DNA of 21,677 nucleotides, taken from a virus. This document shows, in pieces, positions 2,460-19,092 of the stretch. A model generated the notes under the pieces. The model saw nothing but the letters and a program-made list of their open reading frames with translations, did not search any database and was not told the origin of the DNA. Position 1 is the first letter of the stretch; each line of letters starts with the position of its first letter. Where the stretch lies: positions 1-21,677 of the IMG/VR virus record IMGVR_UViG_3300028883_000997; one strand, given 5' to 3'. A program made the position numbers and the translations under genes.

Positions 2460-3290
2460 ATGAGACCTATGAAATGCATTCTTTTTGCAGCTGTTTTTGT
2501 GTTACTTGCACCATCGGTATTGGCGGATGAAGTAGACGATCTCATACTAGACTTGAAATCTGAGCTGCCCTACGTCCGAGCAGATGCAGCATCAGCACTT
2601 GGCGAAATAGGCGATGTTAGGGCGGTAGATCCTTTGATTGAGGCTCTAAAGGACGGGGACCCAGATGTTAGAGGGAAATCTGCTTGGTCACTTGCTGATA
2701 TTGGAGACCCCAAGGCAGTTGAACCATTGATTGAAGCACTCAGAACCGATGATTCATGTGCCAGAGGAAAAATAGCATGGTCTCTCGGTGAGATCGGGGG
2801 AGATCGAGCAGTAGAGCCGTTGATTGATATCCTTAATAACGACAAGGATTCTGATAATCGATGGGTTGCAGCAGATGCACTTGGAACTATTGGGGATTCT
2901 CGTGCAGTTGAACCATTGATTGCAGCTATAAATGATTCAGACAGTTGGGTTCGCCAGTGTGTTGCCTACGCACTCGGAACTATTGGGGACCCGTGTGCAG
3001 TGGACCCTTTGATCGTAGCGCTGAACGACTCGGATAGTTCTGTTCGAGAGGCGGCTATATATGCGCTTAGGATGATAGGAGATGTCAGGGCAGTTGATCC
3101 CTTGATAGTTGCATTGAACGATACTGATGGGTCTGTACGTCGGGATGCTGCAGATGCGCTTGGTAGTATAGGCGATGCCCGTGCTGTTGGTCCATTAACA
3201 TTAGCATTGAGCGATTCAAATTCTAATGTTCGTGAGTCGGCAATATATGCTCTCGAACTCATTGAACAATCAAAGTTTGTTTCGGACTAA
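2460..3290 (+). CDS. Secreted HEAT-repeat (PBS-lyase HEAT-like) protein
   Basis: The 276-aa protein has an N-terminal signal peptide (MKCILFAAVFVLLAPSVLAD) followed by about eight HEAT-like repeats of roughly 31 residues with the pattern VRxxAAxALGxIGDxRAVxPLIxAL (for example at about 36-63, 67-94 and 99-125). Such repeats form an alpha-solenoid used for protein-protein binding. With the signal peptide it should act outside the cytoplasmic membrane. Methanogens carry many similar secreted HEAT proteins, so this may be host-derived cargo or a host gene captured by the element. It starts at ATG 2460, placed 26 nt after the TATA box; ATG 2469 is an alternative. The binding partner is unknown. 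Confidence 0.8.
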   Translation: MRPMKCILFAAVFVLLAPSVLADEVDDLILDLKSELPYVRADAASALGEIGDVRAVDPLIEALKDGDPDVRGKSAWSLADIGDPKAVEPLIEALRTDDSCARGKIAWSLGEIGGDRAVEPLIDILNNDKDSDNRWVAADALGTIGDSRAVEPLIAAINDSDSWVRQCVAYALGTIGDPCAVDPLIVALNDSDSSVREAAIYALRMIGDVRAVDPLIVALNDTDGSVRRDAADALGSIGDARAVGPLTLALSDSNSNVRESAIYALELIEQSKFVSD

Positions 3291-11441: not shown

Positions 11442-12143
11442 TCAGGCCGCCTCCTGCTGTTCGTTGAACTGTTTGTAGAGGGTTGGGTCCATCTCCAAGA
11501 CTTTGGAAACTGCTTTCTCGAAAGTCATCTCGCCTGCGGATTTCTCGACCAGTGCCTGAGCCCGTTTGGTGATCTTATCCCAGACGTCTCCATTGCTTTC
11601 CTCGGAGCTGCTTTCTTTTCCGATCTCTGAATAGAGCGACCCTTTCTCGATGGCCGTATCTGCAGCTTTCAAAATGGTGGCGATCTTCTCTTCCATCTCT
11701 GGCGAGGCTTCTGATATGGTCTTGAGGATCAGGCCCAGCTCTTGAGGGTTTGCCGATATGTGCTTCAAGCCACGGGCCTTCTCGACGAAGGCCTTCTCCA
11801 CCTTCTCTCGTTCCAGCTCGGTAGCCTTCTCGACGGCTTTTTTCCGCTCGTCCTCGGCCTTCTCGGCTCGATCCAACTCTCTGTGGATCTGCTCGTCTCG
11901 CTCTTTCAGGGCCTTCTCGATCTCGGCCCTCTCATCTTCAGGGAGATTTTTGAGTATATCTTCTAGATCTCCCCCCGTTCTGGTGCGTTTCACGTTATTC
12001 TCTCCCTTCGTTACGAGTTCTAAATCGACATCTTCCCCCGCACCTGCACTTTTGCAAACCAAGAACTGCTGGCCGTTGGCACCCTGGGCCACCAAAGATA
12101 TCTCAAAGATTTCAAGGTCAGTCAATTGGAATACGATGGCCAA
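11442..12143 (-). CDS. Scaffold half of a split XkdF-like protease-scaffold
   Basis: The first ~32 residues (TDLEIFEISLVAQGANGQQF, LVCKS) match the C-terminal end of the XkdF/prohead-protease-like domain, where E-I-S-L-V-x-x-x-A-N is the usual ending. The rest is a charged coiled coil at about 60-125 (EDERAEIEKALKERDEQIHR), then a helical tail with the capsid-binding look of scaffolds (GDVWDKITKRAQALVEKSAG). The apparent start is TTG 12143, only 2 nt after a GGAGG, which is too close. The preceding gene overlaps it by 26 nt in another frame. The two together would make a normal-length (~350 aa) XkdF-scaffold protein, so this is either a frameshifted gene or one expressed by reinitiation. Confidence 0.75.
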   Translation of the reverse strand: MAIVFQLTDLEIFEISLVAQGANGQQFLVCKSAGAGEDVDLELVTKGENNVKRTRTGGDLEDILKNLPEDERAEIEKALKERDEQIHRELDRAEKAEDERKKAVEKATELEREKVEKAFVEKARGLKHISANPQELGLILKTISEASPEMEEKIATILKAADTAIEKGSLYSEIGKESSSEESNGDVWDKITKRAQALVEKSAGEMTFEKAVSKVLEMDPTLYKQFNEQQEAA

Positions 12144-12513
12144 CGCCTCCTATTGAAAATGAGTTGAATATGCCCGATTTTACGGCCTGCCAGATCTCCT
12201 CAGAATCAACCTTGATTCCTACTATCCAACTGCCTTCGTCGATTTTCTGGCCCTCGATGGTCAATTCAGCAGGTGCCAGATAGCTCTCCACCAAACTGGC
12301 CGGAGCTGGACTTTGGTGGGATATTCCCACCTCTCTGGAAGATATCAGAAAATCGTGGGCTGCTTGCCGGATGTCGTCTTTTGAGACTACGTCTCCCTGC
12401 AGATCTTCAGAATCTGGTTTCAAGACCACTCCGTAGATTAAACGAAGCTCTTCGCTTTTGGTTAAAATGTCCATGGTGCGGCTGAACTTTTCTAACTTGT
12501 CCAATTTGTCCAA
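12118..12513 (-). CDS. XkdF-like prohead protease-like domain
   Basis: A 131-aa protein matching the XkdF (PBSX phage-like element) putative serine protease domain: LIYGVVLKPDSEDLQGDVVS, KDDIRQAAHDFL, a HQSPAP segment after SREVGISH, SYLAPAEL, then GSWIVGIKVDSEEIWQAVKS and GIFNSFSIGG. These proteins are thought to process scaffold and capsid during maturation. The chain stops just after SIGG, before the family's last strand, which continues in another frame in the next gene. The start is TTG 12513 with GGTGA 4 nt upstream; ATG 12474 is a shorter alternative. In related viruses this gene follows portal or minor head protein directly; here a ~5-kb cassette intervenes. Confidence 0.75.
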   Translation of the reverse strand: MDKLDKLEKFSRTMDILTKSEELRLIYGVVLKPDSEDLQGDVVSKDDIRQAAHDFLISSREVGISHQSPAPASLVESYLAPAELTIEGQKIDEGSWIVGIKVDSEEIWQAVKSGIFNSFSIGGVGHRIPID

Positions 12514-12581
12514 GGTTTCACCCCTGGTACCCCAAGGCTGGCTGCGCCGAGGTAGGCTGCCATAATGAACAAATTGTAATG

Positions 12582-12601
12582 AGTAGTCTGTTTAAGTTTT
12601 C
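12582..12601 (-). promoter_or_regulatory. Shared late-promoter motif upstream of the protease gene
   Basis: On the plus strand this reads AGTAGTCTGTTTAAGTTTTC. The same 20-mer with two substitutions occurs at 20798-20817 before TerS. On the minus strand both contain a TTAAAC TATA-like core. Here the leader to TTG 12513 would be about 45 nt. Confidence 0.5.
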
Positions 12602-12630
12602 GGTGAATGAAGTTATGGCACAAGAAAAAG

Positions 12631-12718
12631 AGTACCTTAAAGGCGACTTCATTTCTTATATGTACTAATAGCTAAATGCCAGTATATTGCCATATAAGAC
12701 TGACATCGGTAAGGTACT
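12631..12718. repeat. Nested inverted repeats upstream of the cassette operon
   Basis: Outer arms AGTACCTTA (12631-12639) and TAAGGTACT (12710-12718) are perfect complements. Inner arms CTTATATG (12655-12662) and CATATAAG (12691-12698) are also perfect, 28 nt apart. The right inner arm doubles as the likely TATA box for the TPR gene (initiation near 12720, leader ~30 nt). A further AGTACCTT stands at 17332-17339 before the other rightward gene of the cassette. This looks like an operator or a large hairpin. Confidence 0.45.
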
Positions 12719-12751
12719 TATCGATCCACATTTGTAACGTTGGATCTAGTT

Positions 12752-13636
12752 ATGAAATTGGACGACTTGTTTGATAGGGCTTTAAAATGCGTAAACAACG
12801 GCAAATTCGAAGACGCCCAAGACATATTTGAGGAACTGCTAAAACTAGATCCTGAAAACGTCGATTTACTTTACAATTCAGGCATGTGCTATACTGAATT
12901 GGGCGAACCCAAAAAAGCTATCGAATTATTAGACAAATGCATCCAATTTGATCCGTCGTTCTCAAATGCACACGTTGCAATTTCTTATGCTCATTCAAAA
13001 ATTGGCAATTTAGACCAAGCTAAAACTCACTTACTCAAAGCCATCGAACTTGATCCAAATAACTCCTATGCGCTTAAAAATTTGGGTGGACTTTTAGGGA
13101 AAGAAGGCGACCACATAAAATCTCTTTATTACCTTAAACGATCTTTTGAAAATAACCCCTTCGATCCGCTCACTGTGTACGGGCTCGGGCTAACCTACAA
13201 AGAACTTGATGACTACGAAAATTCTGCAAAATATTTCAACATATTTCTGGAAATGGACGGCCCAGAACCACTTAAAAATCACGTTAAAGACTATCTAAGG
13301 GATCTGGCAGAAAAGGAGCTGAAATCAGTTGGATTGCGGATAGACGCCGTCTTTTACATGGTGCATGCTTTGGAGTTATTCGAAAATAAGTCGTTCCAAG
13401 ACGTTCAAATAATCTCATCCGAAATCGGGCTGAAAGGACAGTCTGGCATAGATATAAACGACCCAGCCAAACAATATAGCTTAGATTCGTTAGATGGCAA
13501 ATTTTCGGGATTGGAATTGATATCTACCATGTACGTCGGGTTCAAAAAAATAGCCCCAAACTTAGACATTGGCATCGATTTATCAGAAGAATACGACATG
13601 GCCTTGAAGTTGTTTAATTCAGACGATCTATTATGA
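12752..13636 (+). CDS. TPR-repeat protein, first gene of the cassette operon
   Basis: A 294-aa protein starting at ATG 12752; TTG 12740 is an alternative with no better signal. The first ~175 residues form about five tetratricopeptide repeats (KFEDAQDIFEELLKLDPENV, KKAIELLDKCIQFDPSFSNA, DQAKTHLLKAIELDPNNSYA), a scaffold for protein binding. The C-terminal ~100 residues (from LRIDAVFYMVHALELF) are a separate domain I do not recognise. The TGA overlaps the next ATG (ATGA at 13633-13636), implying a stoichiometric partner of the HECGH protein. Soluble and AT-rich. It is probably the sensing or adaptor subunit of the cassette; that role is inference. Confidence 0.8.
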   Translation: MKLDDLFDRALKCVNNGKFEDAQDIFEELLKLDPENVDLLYNSGMCYTELGEPKKAIELLDKCIQFDPSFSNAHVAISYAHSKIGNLDQAKTHLLKAIELDPNNSYALKNLGGLLGKEGDHIKSLYYLKRSFENNPFDPLTVYGLGLTYKELDDYENSAKYFNIFLEMDGPEPLKNHVKDYLRDLAEKELKSVGLRIDAVFYMVHALELFENKSFQDVQIISSEIGLKGQSGIDINDPAKQYSLDSLDGKFSGLELISTMYVGFKKIAPNLDIGIDLSEEYDMALKLFNSDDLL

Positions 13637-14439
13637 CTTTAAATTTGATTGAATCCGTCAACTCGATTTTGAGCGAAGTGGAAGACAAAAGCAATAAACC
13701 CATAGAGTTTATTGAAAAAGAGGATCTAAAAACATACGCTGTGGTGAAGATTGCTCGATCGAGCATGCCAGCTCATTTAATATTTTACAAAAAAGATCAC
13801 GCCGAACTCATCAATCATCTGATAGCACACGAATGCGGCCATATTTTGAGAACTTTCGGCGTTCCCGAGGCGAAAAGATTGATTCCCATGTCCTACAAGG
13901 ACAATCGAGATCGAGTAATTAAAGACATCTCAAAGGATCTCAAAAAATTGTCCTCGGTCGTCCCAGCCCAAAAAGTGGACCAGCTCGTCGACTTCTGGCA
14001 TCGAGGAATTGTCCAACAGATAACCAGCTACCCTCCTGATATTAGCATAGAGAAATGGATTTACGATAGCTATCCTGAACTGAGGCCGTACCAATTAGAA
14101 TCTATTGAGAAACAAAAAGAGTCCTCGATAGAAGTTTTATCTAACGAAGTAAAGATGATGGTTCCACGAAAAATTTATAACGCAAATAATTTAATGAACT
14201 ACGCATTTTTTAACATTCTAGGCGAACATATCGGCGTCGATTTGGTTAAACCATACAACAGAACACCTTACGTTAAAAAGGGTAAAAAGCTGGTTTCACT
14301 GACCAAAAAAGAGTTCGTCAATACCTACGAGGGCGACATTGAAATGACAAACCATTGGGCCAAATTTTTGAATATATCTGGTTGGTTTGAATGGACCAGT
14401 TTTGAAAATATACCTGATAATTACCTGACTTCAGTCTGA
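13633..14439 (+). CDS. Zinc-metalloprotease-like protein (HECGH motif)
   Basis: A 268-aa soluble protein containing H66-E67-C68-G69-H70 within NHLIAHECGHILRTFG, a typical HExxH zincin helix: hydrophobic before it, Gly within it, and an Ile/Leu-rich continuation. The two His would bind zinc and the Glu activate water. The third ligand is not certain; an Asp/Glu in the helical stretch IEKWIYDSYPELRPYQLE is a candidate. The N-terminal ~50 residues look beta-rich, as in small ImmA/IrrE-type (M78) peptidases, but the C-terminal ~150 residues are unfamiliar. It overlaps the TPR gene by 4 nt, so the two probably form a complex. Proteolysis of a repressor or of a partner protein is the likely activity; the substrate is unknown. 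Confidence 0.7.
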   Translation: MTLNLIESVNSILSEVEDKSNKPIEFIEKEDLKTYAVVKIARSSMPAHLIFYKKDHAELINHLIAHECGHILRTFGVPEAKRLIPMSYKDNRDRVIKDISKDLKKLSSVVPAQKVDQLVDFWHRGIVQQITSYPPDISIEKWIYDSYPELRPYQLESIEKQKESSIEVLSNEVKMMVPRKIYNANNLMNYAFFNILGEHIGVDLVKPYNRTPYVKKGKKLVSLTKKEFVNTYEGDIEMTNHWAKFLNISGWFEWTSFENIPDNYLTSV

Positions 14440-14448
14440 GATGCTTTT

Positions 14449-14778
14449 ATGTGCAAAGAACTGGACGAGATCAAACAAAAATTATCGGTATTTAGAGATG
14501 ATAGGGATTGGAAGCGATACCATTCCCCCAAAAATCTGGCAGAGGCCATCTCGATAGAATCGAACGAACTTTTGGAGATATTCCTATGGAAGGATGGTAA
14601 AGATTCGTGGGATCTGACCGATACAGAGATGGAAAACGCGAAACAAGAAATAGCCGACGTGTTCATTTACATCTCATATTTTTGCGATGAATTAAATGTA
14701 GATTTGTTCGAAAAAGTTAAAAAGAAGATACGGCTAAATGAAGTTAAACATCCTATTGAATGCGAAAAGGACAAATAA
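14449..14778 (+). CDS. MazG-like nucleotide pyrophosphohydrolase
   Basis: A 109-aa all-alpha NTP-PPase of the MazG-like family, which cleaves (d)NTPs to (d)NMP and pyrophosphate. Family landmarks are all visible: FRDDRDWKRYHSPKNLA near the N-terminus, the metal-binding ExxE at E37-E40 (ISIESNELLEIFLW), ExxD at E67-D70 (QEIADVFIYISYF), and a closing KKKIRLNEVKHPIE, equivalent to the usual K-x-x-x-N-x-x-K-Y-P. The single-domain length is normal. It starts 9 nt after the HECGH gene and ends 22 nt before the helicase gene. In this context it might deplete or sanitise nucleotides, or destroy a signalling nucleotide, when the system is triggered. The precise substrate cannot be read from sequence. 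Confidence 0.85.
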   Translation: MCKELDEIKQKLSVFRDDRDWKRYHSPKNLAEAISIESNELLEIFLWKDGKDSWDLTDTEMENAKQEIADVFIYISYFCDELNVDLFEKVKKKIRLNEVKHPIECEKDK

Positions 14779-14800
14779 GAATCGAGAGGCACTGTAGCCC

Positions 14801-16675
14801 ATGCAGCTATATTCGGGCACTTCGACTCAATTTATACAAGATACGGTTCAAAATCAAATAGCTGAAAAACTTAAAAACTCATTCTTCAACTATTTCAGGT
14901 ACAACCCTTCTCCTGCTGAAGTTAACTCCTGGAGAAACTCACTGAGAGCGGTTTCTTTGTTGTTTATGAGTGCTGAACTCAATGACCATGGCGTGATTTT
15001 AGAATATCAATTGCCGCTTAGCTCAAAAAGATTGGACTGTATGGTCTGCGGGCGAGATGCAAACGAAGAAGATAACGCAGTCATAATTGAACTCAAACAA
15101 TGGGAAAAATGCCGAGAAGCCGATGGAGATAACGAGGTTTTAACGTGGGTTGGTGGAGCTGAAAGAGAAGTTCTTCATCCATCGGTACAAGTTGGCAGAT
15201 ACCAAATGTACCTAGAAGATGGCCACACTGCCTTTTACGATGGCGTATCTCCAATTAACCTCAACGCCTGTACTTATCTTCATAATTATAGCTATAATCC
15301 TGATGATGTTATATTCTCACCGAAATTCGAAGAACCTCTAGCAAGATACCCTCTGTTTACCGAAGACGATGCTGACAAGTTAAGCAATTATCTGGTTGAC
15401 AAACTGAAGAAAGGCAGTGGTTTAGACGTTCTCAAAAGAGTTGAAGAAAGCACATTGAGGCCAAGCAGAAACCTCATGAACCACGTCGGAACCATGATCA
15501 AAGGAAAATCTGAATTCATACTTCTTGACGAACAACTTGTCGTATACGACAAGGTATTTTCTTCGGCCAAGAAAGGTTTTCACGACAAGAAAAAGACTGT
15601 CGTCATCATAAAGGGCGGGCCGGGTACTGGCAAATCCGTAATAGCAATCAACTTGATGGCAGATCTATTGTTGAAAGGTTACAATGCATATTATGCCACG
15701 GGATCTAAAGCGTTTACAGAGACTTTAAGGAAGAAAATCGGTCCTAGAGGCAGTATTCAATTCAAGTATTTCAACAGCTTTGTAAAGTCCAAATTTAACG
15801 AGATCGACGTATTGATCTGTGACGAAGCCCATCGTATAAGAAAAAGCAGTTCCAATAGATTCACTAAAAAAGCAGATCGAAGTGATAAAAAACAGATTGA
15901 AGAACTACTGAACTCGGCCAAGGTTTCTGTGTTTTTAATCGACGATAACCAAGTTGTCAGACCCGATGAAACAGGGTCGGTCAATCTAATCAAAGAGTAT
16001 GCTGAAAAGTACAATTGTGATATTTACGAGTACGAACTCGATATTCAGTTCAGGTGTGGCGGTTGTGAAGATTTTATCAACTGGGTTGATAACACATTGG
16101 GAATAAGAAAAACTGCAAATGTTTTGTGGGGCGAAAGTGAAGATTTCGATTTTAAAATCTTTGATAGCCCAGAAGAATTGGAAAGCGCCATCAAAGAAAA
16201 AGTAGACCAGGATTACAGTGCACGGTTGTCGGCTGGCTTTTGTTGGGGGTGGTCAAAGGAACTCGAACCAGATGGTACCCTAAAAAACGATGTGGTGGTT
16301 GGAAACTTCAAACGCCCCTGGAATGCGAGACATGACGCTCGTAGACTGGCTTCAGGCATCCCGAAGGCGTCTCTTTGGGCCACAGATCCTAACGGCATGG
16401 GTCAAGTGGGATGTATTTATACCGCACAGGGGTTTGAATTCGATTATATAGGGGTAATTTTTGGGAACGATCTAATCTACAACTTTGACGAACAGGAATG
16501 GGACGGTATCAAAAAGAATTGTGCCGATACAGTTGTCAAAAGGTCTGGAGATAAATTTGTAGATCTGGTCAAGAACACTTACCGAGTGCTGCTGACGAGA
16601 GGCATGAAGGGCTGTTACGTCCACTTCATGGACAAGGATACAGAACGGTTCGTAAAAAGTAGGTTAGAACATTAA
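14801..16675 (+). CDS. PD-(D/E)XK nuclease-like domain fused to DUF2075 helicase
   Basis: A 624-aa protein. Residues ~60-105 carry a PD-(D/E)XK-like core: LEYQLPLSSKRLDCMV with D79, then AVIIELKQWEK with E97-x-K99. Residues ~265-620 are a superfamily-1-like DUF2075 helicase: Walker A GGPGTGKS (272-279), Walker B CDEAHR (340-345), DDNQVVRPDE (381-390), QFRCGG (416-421), YTAQGFEFDYIGVI (540-553) and motif VI VLLTRGMKGCYV (596-607). All motifs look intact, so it should hydrolyse ATP and may cut or unwind nucleic acid. GAGAGG sits 11 nt before the ATG. It is the likely effector of the cassette. Helicase-nuclease proteins of this type are common near defence genes; a housekeeping repair role is possible. 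Confidence 0.82.
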   Translation: MQLYSGTSTQFIQDTVQNQIAEKLKNSFFNYFRYNPSPAEVNSWRNSLRAVSLLFMSAELNDHGVILEYQLPLSSKRLDCMVCGRDANEEDNAVIIELKQWEKCREADGDNEVLTWVGGAEREVLHPSVQVGRYQMYLEDGHTAFYDGVSPINLNACTYLHNYSYNPDDVIFSPKFEEPLARYPLFTEDDADKLSNYLVDKLKKGSGLDVLKRVEESTLRPSRNLMNHVGTMIKGKSEFILLDEQLVVYDKVFSSAKKGFHDKKKTVVIIKGGPGTGKSVIAINLMADLLLKGYNAYYATGSKAFTETLRKKIGPRGSIQFKYFNSFVKSKFNEIDVLICDEAHRIRKSSSNRFTKKADRSDKKQIEELLNSAKVSVFLIDDNQVVRPDETGSVNLIKEYAEKYNCDIYEYELDIQFRCGGCEDFINWVDNTLGIRKTANVLWGESEDFDFKIFDSPEELESAIKEKVDQDYSARLSAGFCWGWSKELEPDGTLKNDVVVGNFKRPWNARHDARRLASGIPKASLWATDPNGMGQVGCIYTAQGFEFDYIGVIFGNDLIYNFDEQEWDGIKKNCADTVVKRSGDKFVDLVKNTYRVLLTRGMKGCYVHFMDKDTERFVKSRLEH

Positions 16676-16800
16676 TACATGCCTGGTTTGCAACAATTCG
16701 CAGTTGTTAAGTAGTAGTGATTACAATAAAAAATATAGAATATTAATTGCGATTGGTCATAAGTCCTGTAAAATTAGTCAAGTGTAAGTGACAACACATA

Positions 16801-17190
16801 CTAAGGACTAACTGGCAAAAACAGTTCGTCATCGTTGATCTCAATGATATTATGCCTCAGTTTGTCCAAAGTGTCAAGTAACACTATTGAATATCTAGTT
16901 AAATAATACCTTCGGTTATCCACAATCACCAAATCTGCGTTTTTCATATCATAAAGAGCATGGTTAAGCGCACTTGTTGATAATCCAGTAACATCCCGAA
17001 GATCCCCTAACGTTAGACCGCTATCATTTTTTAAGGCTTTTGCAATAAGCAGCACATTTTTGTTAGCAAATTTTCGCAATGATTCCTGTAGATTGTACTT
17101 TCGTTTGCCCGTGAACTCGAATCCAGATGCTTGCAAATCGCCCTTAGGACGGGCCACCAGCAACAACAACAATATCAATGCTGTTTTCAT
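16801..17190 (-). CDS. Winged-helix protein with a hydrophobic N-terminus
   Basis: A 129-aa protein. Residues ~33-110 form a winged helix: FANKNVLLIAKALKN, GLTLGDLRDVTGLSTSALNH (helix-turn-helix), DMKNADLVIVDNRRYYLT (wing), resembling ArsR-like archaeal regulators. Unusually, the chain opens with MKTALILLLLLVARPKGD, a candidate membrane helix. The start is supported by AAATTAAA at 17211-17218 on this strand, 24 nt upstream; a TTG at DLQAS would remove the hydrophobic part. It is convergent with the helicase operon and divergent from the small charged gene, with a palindrome in the shared intergenic region. It probably regulates the cassette, perhaps from the membrane. Confidence 0.65.
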   Translation of the reverse strand: MKTALILLLLLVARPKGDLQASGFEFTGKRKYNLQESLRKFANKNVLLIAKALKNDSGLTLGDLRDVTGLSTSALNHALYDMKNADLVIVDNRRYYLTRYSIVLLDTLDKLRHNIIEINDDELFLPVSP

Positions 17191-17272
17191 TTGTTACACC
17201 ACACTTAACATTTAATTTGCACACCTTGAAATGTTGTATTTTATTGTATATAATAATGACGGTATGTCTGAA

Positions 17273-17289
17273 TAACGGAGTTTCCGTTA
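17273..17289. promoter_or_regulatory. Candidate operator between the divergent cassette genes
   Basis: TAACGGAGTTTCCGTTA is a perfect 7-bp inverted repeat around GTT, 10 bp before the TATA box of the rightward gene (17300-17307). It lies upstream of the winged-helix gene, a natural site for autoregulation by that protein. Confidence 0.5.
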
Positions 17290-17299
17290 CTTCGTTAAC

Positions 17300-17307
17300 T
17301 TTAAATA
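17300..17307 (+). promoter_or_regulatory. Archaeal TATA box for the small charged gene
   Basis: TTTAAATA predicts initiation near 17330 and a leader of about 40 nt that carries the GGAGG at 17356-17360. A short inverted repeat (AGAGA/TCTCT, 17314-17327) and AGTACCTT (17332-17339) lie in between. Confidence 0.5.
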
Positions 17308-17368
17308 CTTTCGAGAGAAATATCTCTATGCAGTACCTTGGTCATACATTCCCGTGGAGGGTACTATA

Positions 17369-17710
17369 ATGTCAAAAAAGGCTAAGATTGAGGAGGACAA
17401 AAAATCCAAAAATCAACGTCATATTTTCGAGTTTATCCTCCGCAGAGATCGGCCAGACTTAGTGCCTTTTTTAGACAGTTTTGAATATAAAATGAATCTA
17501 TTGTACCAACAACGTGAAAAAAGATCTCAAAAAATAAGCATTGAATTAACTTTGACCGACATTGATACACTTGATACACTGGCTGAAGCACTCGTAAAAC
17601 AAAGAACGCTTGACGAATGTGATGAAATCCAACATCTCAGAATACTTCTTGAAATGATGAAATACACGGTCACTATTTTGATGATAATGAACGGAATAAA
17701 CTATTCATAG
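17369..17710 (+). CDS. Small charged protein of the cassette, unknown
   Basis: A 113-aa protein starting at ATG 17369, chosen over GTG 17354 because GGAGG (17356-17360) sits 8 nt upstream of it. It begins with a Lys/Glu-rich segment (MSKKAKIEEDKKSKNQR) followed by helices: HIFEFILRRDRPDLVPFLDS, NLLYQQREKRSQ, DIDTLDTLAEALVKQ and a final hydrophobic MMKYTVTILMIMNGINYS. It has no recognised domain. Its divergent position to the winged-helix gene and its size suggest a regulator, antitoxin-like or anti-defence partner, but nothing in the sequence proves that. It ends 104 nt before the converging portal gene stop. Confidence 0.6.
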   Translation: MSKKAKIEEDKKSKNQRHIFEFILRRDRPDLVPFLDSFEYKMNLLYQQREKRSQKISIELTLTDIDTLDTLAEALVKQRTLDECDEIQHLRILLEMMKYTVTILMIMNGINYS

Positions 17711-17814
17711 AATAAAATATAGTGTAGGCCCACCCCATTGAGTCAACACTTCTAAGATTGACTTCAACTCACCTGTCGTCTTGCCCTCCAAGTAAAAACT
17801 GGATTTAATTTATC

Positions 17815-19077
17815 CTATCCCCTCTTCGGCAGATCCGCAGCCGTACGCAAGTGATTCTCCAGCTCTTCATCACTAGCCAGAGATATGTTGGCCCTGGCAA
17901 TATCCGAGATGAACCGACCCAGCTTGGCCAAATCTACGTCCTCCACCTTATCATGAACCAACTGAGGCAAACTTCCCGCCTCCATGCCGTTCAAGGCCAA
18001 AAGCCGAGGTATGGCATTGGCATTGATCACCTCGGCAATCGAGTCGAGGATGGCAGATAGAGCCTGAGTGAACAGCTTGTTCTTGCTCTCACCCAACGAG
18101 TAAGTACCGGTCTTCTCATGACCCAATAGCAAGAAATCTGCCAACATGACCATGGCTATCCGTATATCGTACCTCTCGATTATGGCCCCTGTATCAATCT
18201 GTCTTCGCCCTCCGGTGCTCAGAAGCGATATATCGTAGAGCTTGTTACCGTTTTCATCGTAAGAGAGAGGCACCAATATTCCTTCTTCCTCGTCTCGACG
18301 GAGATTTTTAACGATCTTCAAATACTCAGAAAAGGCGGCCTTGTCCTCGTCTGTAACCTTGGCTGCAACGTTGGGAGGAATCCAGATCACAGGCAGACCG
18401 GCCAAATCTCGTTCAATACCTATGGCCTCGATATCCTCCATGTTGACCTTGTAATACCAAGGCCGGTAGGCGTTCCTCAACATGGACTTCCCCTCGGGAT
18501 TGCCCTTGGTAGACATTATCCGGAACAAGAGAGCCTTTTCTAGAGGTATGGTCCGAATCTGGTAATCAGATGGAGGCATCTGGACCATGGCATTAAGGTT
18601 ACCGTTCTCGTCAAACTCCCAGCGATAAAGCGAATCTTGAGATCTGGGTGACCACTTCCTCCACCCGATCTTTCCGTCGCTGAACTTCGAATGATGGTGA
18701 TCTACTCCTTCTGGCCCCAAACGACGCTTGTAGACGATCTCCAGAAAAGACCAACCATAAATGATCATGGTCAGAATTTCAGATAGCGTCTCGTTCCAGG
18801 ATATTGACATGTCATCAAGACAGCCTTCCACGAAGTCTTTGGCCTCTTGTTCTTCTTTTGATTCCCCTTTCGGTTCCAGCCACCACGATACCCGTCTCAG
18901 ATACATGTTGACCACGAACAATACGGCGCCGATTGTTGGGTCGTTGTCGGCCATTTTGCTGAATATTTTGGCCCCTCTGGATCCCTTTAAAACGGGAAGG
19001 GCCTCTTCGTCGATGAACCCACCGTACTGCTTGAGCCCGGTTCGACCGTACTCTTCGAAAGTTCTGATGCGTTTCAT
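17815..19077 (-). CDS. Portal protein (DUF935 / Mu gp29-like)
   Basis: A 420-aa portal forming the dodecameric ring through which TerL packages DNA. The sequence fits the Mu gp29/DUF935 type: an N-terminal MADNDPTIGAVLFVVNMYLR, WWLEPKGESKEEQEAKDFVE, LSEILTMIIYGWSFLEIVYK, WKW-type strands, the FRIMSTKGNPEGKSMLRNAY motif, then WYYKVNMEDIEAIGIERDLA-GLPVIWIP. The helical stem and C-terminal part (QALSAILDSIAEVINANAIP, LPQLV) are also typical. ATG 19077 is preferred to GTG 19089 because GGTGA lies about 6 nt upstream. It follows TerL, with the TTTGGTGCG tandem repeat filling the gap. In relatives the next genes would be minor head protein and protease; here the converging cassette follows. Confidence 0.88.
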   Translation of the reverse strand: MKRIRTFEEYGRTGLKQYGGFIDEEALPVLKGSRGAKIFSKMADNDPTIGAVLFVVNMYLRRVSWWLEPKGESKEEQEAKDFVEGCLDDMSISWNETLSEILTMIIYGWSFLEIVYKRRLGPEGVDHHHSKFSDGKIGWRKWSPRSQDSLYRWEFDENGNLNAMVQMPPSDYQIRTIPLEKALLFRIMSTKGNPEGKSMLRNAYRPWYYKVNMEDIEAIGIERDLAGLPVIWIPPNVAAKVTDEDKAAFSEYLKIVKNLRRDEEEGILVPLSYDENGNKLYDISLLSTGGRRQIDTGAIIERYDIRIAMVMLADFLLLGHEKTGTYSLGESKNKLFTQALSAILDSIAEVINANAIPRLLALNGMEAGSLPQLVHDKVEDVDLAKLGRFISDIARANISLASDEELENHLRTAADLPKRG

Positions 19078-19092
19078 TTTATTCACCACGTA

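Follow-up and report, generated by a model that had tools for sequence, protein, structure and literature searches.

A coupled TPR and HExxH gene pair in a virus record looks like the split form of a bacterial protein found ahead of restriction-type defence operons

What does a gene for a TPR protein, coupled to a gene for an HExxH protein, do among the virion genes of a virus? The pair lies in IMG/VR record IMGVR_UViG_3300028883_000997, whose whole 21,677-nucleotide stretch is the window of this analysis. The first-pass annotation had proposed that the two genes are made together as a possible sensor and protease, comparable in logic to ImmA-type proteases that cleave repressors. Both open reading frames lie on the plus strand where it had placed them, that of the TPR protein (294 aa) at 12752..13636 and that of the HExxH protein (268 aa) at 13633..14439, and the ATGA by which they overlap is seen in the bases CTATTATGACTTT around 13633. 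A gene for a MazG-like (PF12643) pyrophosphatase (14449..14778) and one for a nuclease-helicase (14801..16675) follow on the same strand, so that four genes form one operon (12752-16675).

This operon is flanked on the left by a head maturation protease gene (12118-12513) and on the right by a portal gene (17815-19089), both on the minus strand. Among the matches listed, the capsid and portal show about 37-49% identity to their counterparts in tailed bacterial phages. The GC content of the operon is 0.40, and that of the stretch between the two flanking genes (12514..17814) is 0.39; stretches of the same size to the left of the operon reach 0.50 and the right end of the record has 0.49, while the left end of the record is likewise GC-poor (0.41-0.43). 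Because of this dip and its position between virion genes, the four-gene operon has the look of cargo. A winged-helix-like protein encoded convergently with it (16801-17190, minus strand), with weak matches to ArsR/MarR and Csa3 models, could by its sequence be a candidate regulator of the cargo. Elsewhere in the window, a gene at 2460-3290 (plus strand) encodes repeated units of about 31 residues, HEAT/PBS-lyase-like by eye, after a signal-peptide-like start.

The first protein is what the first-pass annotation had described. Pfam TPR_1 marks five stretches within about residues 6-170 (12767..13261), and the last 100 or so residues have no Pfam match above the cut-off among the best 25 of 31 families. 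A C-terminal domain lies at about residues 195-290 (13334..13621). Over 95 aa it shares 39% identity with the end of a single-chain bacterial protein at locus L097, and it shares 43% with that of a TPR protein of the Thauera plasmid pTha01, where such a TPR and C-terminal protein without HExxH is present twice. The pTha01 copies lie at L007:5239-6868 and L008:5208-6838, one of them annotated as two pieces, and each is followed by a 176-aa gene, of which the one scanned had no Pfam match.

The second protein, whose HExxH motif is NHLIAHECGHILRTFG, stood nearly alone in searches by sequence. It has no match at E 1 in Pfam, PADLOC or NCBIfam, its sole match in PHROGs is at E 0.24, and PDB sequences gave none at E 5. 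None of the models of PADLOC-DB 2.0.0 matched it (E <= 1) or a fused relative, the L010 protein (E <= 0.001). A profile search of the PDB with the HExxH alignment returned one match, a serine protease inhibitor at E 0.26, which is not credible. Scanning genome contigs with the single HExxH sequence found no relative, viral scans with A3, A13 and P0004 found no match, and a viral scan with A8 found one fragment (L089) at a contig end. The sole viral-scan match with P0002 (L002), 41 residues inside a large phage-contig ORF, was judged by eye to be chance, and a Pseudarthrobacter match (H3; E 0.1, 27% of the query covered) was set aside as of unclear kinship. Our search of the literature, with most subscription papers outside its reach, found no description of a TPR-HExxH protein.

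Translated searches placed the two genes in a wider family. By tblastn, the HExxH protein is related to a protein of Microcystis phage Mwe-JY31 (24% identity, E 4e-5) and to one of a Hymenobacter plasmid (23% identity, E 8e-5), the alignments covering 89-96% of the window protein. Both relatives are of about 670-685 aa and run from TPRs through an HExxH domain to a C-terminal domain; in both, a MazG-like gene comes after the fused gene. When aligned, the two ends of the fused proteins correspond to the window TPR protein and the middle to the HExxH protein. By these alignments, the window pair is a split form of the fused protein, with the putative catalytic domain on its own chain and the C-terminal domain left on the TPR chain. 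That the two products form one unit, as first supposed from their overlap, gains from finding the same parts fused in bacteria.

Among the bacterial loci gathered, the fused form predominates. A search of genome contigs with domain alignments gave 120 candidate stretches, of which 85 were relatives and 80 loci were kept, all of them bacterial: 65 Bacteroidota, nine Chlorobiota, four from other named phyla and two without a phylum. In 61 of the 80, the TPR/C-terminal and HExxH matches share a single N-free frame, counted from stop to stop, of 600 codons or longer; in the remaining 19 the frame is shorter, often because the contig ends there and sometimes through an interruption, or it contains an N. 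A profile search of the phylum of Formosa maritima matched 22 of 395 sampled genomes, and no separate window-like HExxH gene was found at places above 100 bits, because all of these lie in frames of at least 440 codons. In the phylum of locus L070, two of 148 genomes had matches, both in fused-size frames. The window HExxH protein is highly divergent, with 18-29% identity to its relatives and a branch length of 5.3. Its nearest row in the tree is L097, a placement made unsure by long branches on both; the L097 protein is fused, and the order downstream of it is MazG, a 363-aa gene and helicase. A model of the fused protein reached pLDDT 88.8 and pTM 0.70, its list of structure matches being filled by TPR matches.

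The HECGH motif (H66, E67 and H70; 13828..13842) is, on the evidence of sequence comparison, more than chance, because distant homologues found by whole sequence align with an HExxH at its place and because its three residues are invariant in all 81 homologues that hold those columns (83 in the alignment). D136 and E140, in a D-x3-E arrangement (14038..14052), are invariant in 83 of 83, and H48 in 80 of 80. Loci had been gathered by two peptide patterns, one containing HE and the other D..IE, and we checked this for bias. HExxH is present in 43 of the 44 loci fitting the second pattern only, the 44th (L082) starting inside the domain at a contig end, and D..[IV]E is present in all 25 that fit the first only. 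Both motifs occur in 21 of 22 loci drawn by profile, nine of the 22 being repeats of earlier loci. The exception, L096 (L096:5896-7476), has MSQLIH at the place of the motif and ends without the C-terminal domain. Its neighbours are ClpB-like, gamma-glutamyltranspeptidase and SpoIIE genes; within the 13 kb read there is no MazG or helicase match, and no defence genes were recognised beside it. A homologue that had lost the motif while keeping the operon was thus not seen.

AlphaFold on 59 rows gave a confident model of the HExxH domain (pLDDT 93.3, pTM 0.89), in which three strands precede the HExxH helix and a later long helix holds D136 and E140. The two acidic residues are candidates for a helper and for the third metal ligand that the first-pass annotation had suggested seeking. 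Comparison with known structures gave fainter signals. Foldseek against the PDB returned nothing at E <= 0.001. With VIA-align, metallopeptidases make up 20 of the best 50 rows, all at Z < 5; they are identified by title except for the MATCAP, CapP, BlaR1 and selecase rows, which we take to be metallopeptidases. Other rows are bundles, CorA and glutathione transferases. An uncharacterised virus protein (E 0.0033, probability 1.00) heads the BFVD rows, and 12 of the best 50 are named as zincin-type (SprT-like, IrrE, M48), a few with low probability. From the motif, the order of strands and helices and the weak VIA-align and BFVD rows, the HExxH domain is likely a zincin. The zincin fold expected at first thus finds a confident zincin-like model in its favour, while the structure matches are weak.

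The other two genes of the operon match known families. The helicase matches the SLFN-g3/DUF2075 family PF09848 at 306.7 bits against a cut-off of 24. N-terminal to this, R77, D79, E97-L-K99, Q130 and Y134 are invariant in 10 aligned sequences, a pattern that presumably corresponds to the PD-(D/E)xK motif; we read the N-terminus as a putative PD-(D/E)xK nuclease, in a region where no family match covers the motif. The MazG-like protein matches PF12643 at 42.3 bits against a cut-off of 27, and its nearest solved relatives are a 'pyrophosphatase' (4qgp, E 7e-22) and dCTP pyrophosphatase 1/RS21-C6 (E 4e-12). By sequence it is an enzyme of the DCTPP1 type. The DCTPP1 type is described as binding both dCTP and its modified forms with high affinity (PMC7162842).

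Indications of its role came from what lies beyond the fused gene in other genomes. The context set comprised 84 loci (the 80, the window, and L003, L004 and L006), of which 67 had at least 2.6 kb downstream and 17 too little room. Among those with room, MazG and an SLFN-g3-type helicase are both present in 30 and MazG alone in 14, while 23 have neither beside the gene; the family therefore does occur apart from these partners, as the first-pass annotation had suggested checking. We then took the first frame of more than 200 codons other than MazG in 60 of the 80 loci, and as a control the furthest-upstream frame in 61 loci (stop-to-stop frames, a few possibly spurious). An SLFN-g3 helicase is the first downstream gene in 26 of 60, against three of 61 controls. 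Other downstream matches, among the best 25 of 33 families, are to ResIII (23, in part the same genes as SLFN-g3), Peptidase_S24 (11), SNF2 (4), GIY-YIG (4), AAA_5 (3), BrxA (2), HSDR_N (2), Eco57I (2), DUF6079, N6_Mtase and one RHS repeat. The best 25 of 96 families in the control set are mainly housekeeping and secreted-protein families, with three integrases and one AbiEi antitoxin. The main context of the gene pair is an antiviral defence operon, a setting that the first-pass annotation had missed.

The downstream systems are diverse. L011 has AAA_5 with DUF2357/PDDEXK_7, a pair that we read from its sequence as McrBC-like; type I genes follow at L031 and L063, type IIG-like genes at L053 and L055, a type III methylase at L048, BrxC at L046 and SNF2 at L050. 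They also appear to be swapped. Nine downstream labels, assigned by hand to 59 rows, require 21 changes on a quick tree built from 78 HExxH domains, against a minimum of eight, a count made without a shuffle control. At L018, L026 and L031, the HExxH domains are 90-94% identical, yet three different systems lie downstream. The next gene of more than 200 aa is spaced at -15 to +40 bases in 12 of 60 loci. Of the 12 new motif-bearing loci drawn by profile, only four (L097, L099, L101 and L108) have recognised defence genes downstream: two SLFN-g3, one SNF2 with Eco57I, and one methylase. Four others (L103, L106, L111 and L116) have less than 3 kb of downstream room, and at L109, L112, L114 and L115, which have room, no defence gene was recognised among the genes scanned, a part of those present.

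Several loci show further arrangements. A 723-aa SLFN-g3 helicase (L014:8551-10719) carries GIY-YIG at its N-terminus and a Peptidase_S24-like stretch at its C-terminus. At L028:8154-8864 and L029:8191-8898, the fused gene and MazG are separated by a gene of about 237 aa, with an Exo_endo_phos match in L028. Two different SLFN-g3-type helicase genes stand in tandem at L045:8560-12361, the second 55% identical to that of the window, and the operon of the Marivirga plasmid (L006) is broken in several frames.

ImmA and ImmR form a protease and repressor pair, and this was the likeness first drawn for the window. Membership of the ImmA family finds no support: the HExxH protein has no Peptidase M78 match, and no Pfam match at all at E <= 1. 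Nor does the window itself speak for repressor cleavage, since the two small HTH profiles that we used, which other kinds of regulator would escape, matched nothing upstream of the operon, and the weak Pfam winged-helix match noted above lies downstream on the other strand. Of 76 loci, 10 have a cI-like HTH gene upstream whose end lies no more than 450 bases away, and these are 10 of all 13 matches of the two profiles; those of L010, L011 and L031 are Pfam HTH_3/HTH_31. Because of these 10, the repressor idea stays alive for some relatives: an HTH repressor could be the substrate in some loci, though not visibly so in the window.

Among the closest known parallels is CapH + CapP, an ssDNA-activated protease and its repressor ahead of diverse immune operons. 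Like CapP (PMC13373217), the protein is an HExxH peptidase-like one encoded beside such operons, and one of the weak structural rows for its model is CapP (7t5t, Z 3.4). It differs in having no M78-type sequence match, in its TPR and C-terminal domains, in an adjacent HTH gene at only the 10 of 76 loci, and in the distance from the last motif histidine to the acidic candidate ligand, which is 70 residues here (72 in 78 of 82 sequences). ImmA and PprI(IrrE) share the HExxH and the logic of a protease acting on a regulator (PMC10904395 for PprI(IrrE)); the window protein has no sequence match to these proteases and has other companion domains, and no counterpart of their ImmR and DdrO repressors was found in the window by the two HTH profiles. 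The logic therefore looks analogous to that of CapP and ImmA, in a protein that is no recognisable member of the M78 family. CapW/BrxR and CapK+CapS are likewise controller genes beside diverse immune operons (PMC13373217); the former is a WYL-type regulator and the latter a kinase with a repressor, whereas here the protein is protease-like. The EPEC R-M/DarTG island offers a similar setting, with a metallopeptidase beside type I R-M (PMC12255303); by its authors' description that one differs in being of the M48 family and in lying at the downstream end. The accessible text of a BREX survey (PMC12839542) yielded no TPR, MazG, zincin or HExxH. That of DefensePredictor (PMC13092281) lists MazG among predicted, uncharacterised defence domains, and that of a survey of archaeal immunity (PMC12988326) has a viperin-associated TPR protein, a different system.

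Taking together the fusion, the conservation of the motif, the zincin-like model, the position ahead of diverse defence genes and the swapping among these, our preferred reading, on which we are evenly balanced, is that the TPR-HExxH protein is a metal-dependent, protease-like accessory or controller of restriction-type antiviral operons, carried here as virus cargo. It looks like an accessory to operons with SLFN-g3 helicases, McrBC-like pairs, type I, IIG and III restriction-modification, and BREX, and is probably a control or sensor part of these defences. We infer the metal, the cleavage, the trigger and the substrate. The two window genes would be the two chains of a usually single bacterial protein made of a TPR array, a zincin-like HExxH domain and its own C-terminal domain. 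The HExxH protein would be a cytosolic metal-dependent protease, held or addressed by the TPR and C-terminal domains, so that these sense or address and the HExxH domain cuts. An infection cue may release the catalytic domain, and the neighbouring nuclease system would then be turned on when a single regulator or partner protein is cut.

It is also conceivable, if rather doubtful, that the protein is itself an effector which cuts host or virus proteins upon infection, its neighbours being independent defences that share islands. Defence genes are often clustered, and the 23 of 67 loci with neither MazG nor an SLFN-g3-type helicase adjacent, like the eight of 12 profile-sampled loci in which no defence gene was recognised downstream, fit such independence; the close spacing to the next gene and the exchange of downstream systems among nearly identical copies fit an accessory better. 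We think it very unlikely that the HExxH domain has lost, or always lacked, protease function and instead has a structural or binding role. Structural matches are weak throughout and the motif-less L096 exists, but L096 has no recognised defence genes nearby, and H48, H66, E67, H70, D136 and E140 are invariant in the homologues holding those columns.

The pyrophosphatase raises a different, improbable account, in which the TPR-HExxH protein and the pyrophosphatase form a quality-control pair that shields the host from its own nuclease, either because the enzyme removes modified dCTP or because the protease removes surplus nuclease. The DCTPP1 type of the enzyme is in keeping with this, as is a count over 58 loci with at least 5 kb downstream, in which a [NDS]PP[YFW] methylase-type motif occurs downstream in one of 40 loci with MazG against seven of 18 without (Fisher p 0.0007). 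Once relatedness is allowed for, however, the association is not significant: five independent pairs give a median p of 0.5 for the methylase-type motif alone, and six pairs a median p of 0.06 with BREX loci included among the methylase-bearing ones, a post hoc choice. The mutual exclusion of MazG and the methylase-type motif is thus a trend. A bolder extension, and a long shot, is that a portable module of TPR-zincin and dCTP pyrophosphatase serves methylase-less restriction, the enzyme barring modified cytosine nucleotides from host DNA, which would then bear no target mark, and the protease freeing the nuclease only on infection. If true, such a module would let bacteria, and viruses that have borrowed it, discriminate self from foreign DNA with no need of methylation.

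In summary, on the controller or accessory reading the TPR-HExxH protein looks like a new family whose kind of role is already known. Immune operons must be kept in check, and to our knowledge few of their controllers have been identified. The split virus version would be a natural two-chain reagent for the effect of the TPR and C-terminal domains upon the catalytic domain, and the same protein would serve as a handle for finding new defence systems. Moreover, a protease-like protein that stands before chemically unrelated DNA-targeting defences, and is swapped among them, would be a control or sensing part of general use.
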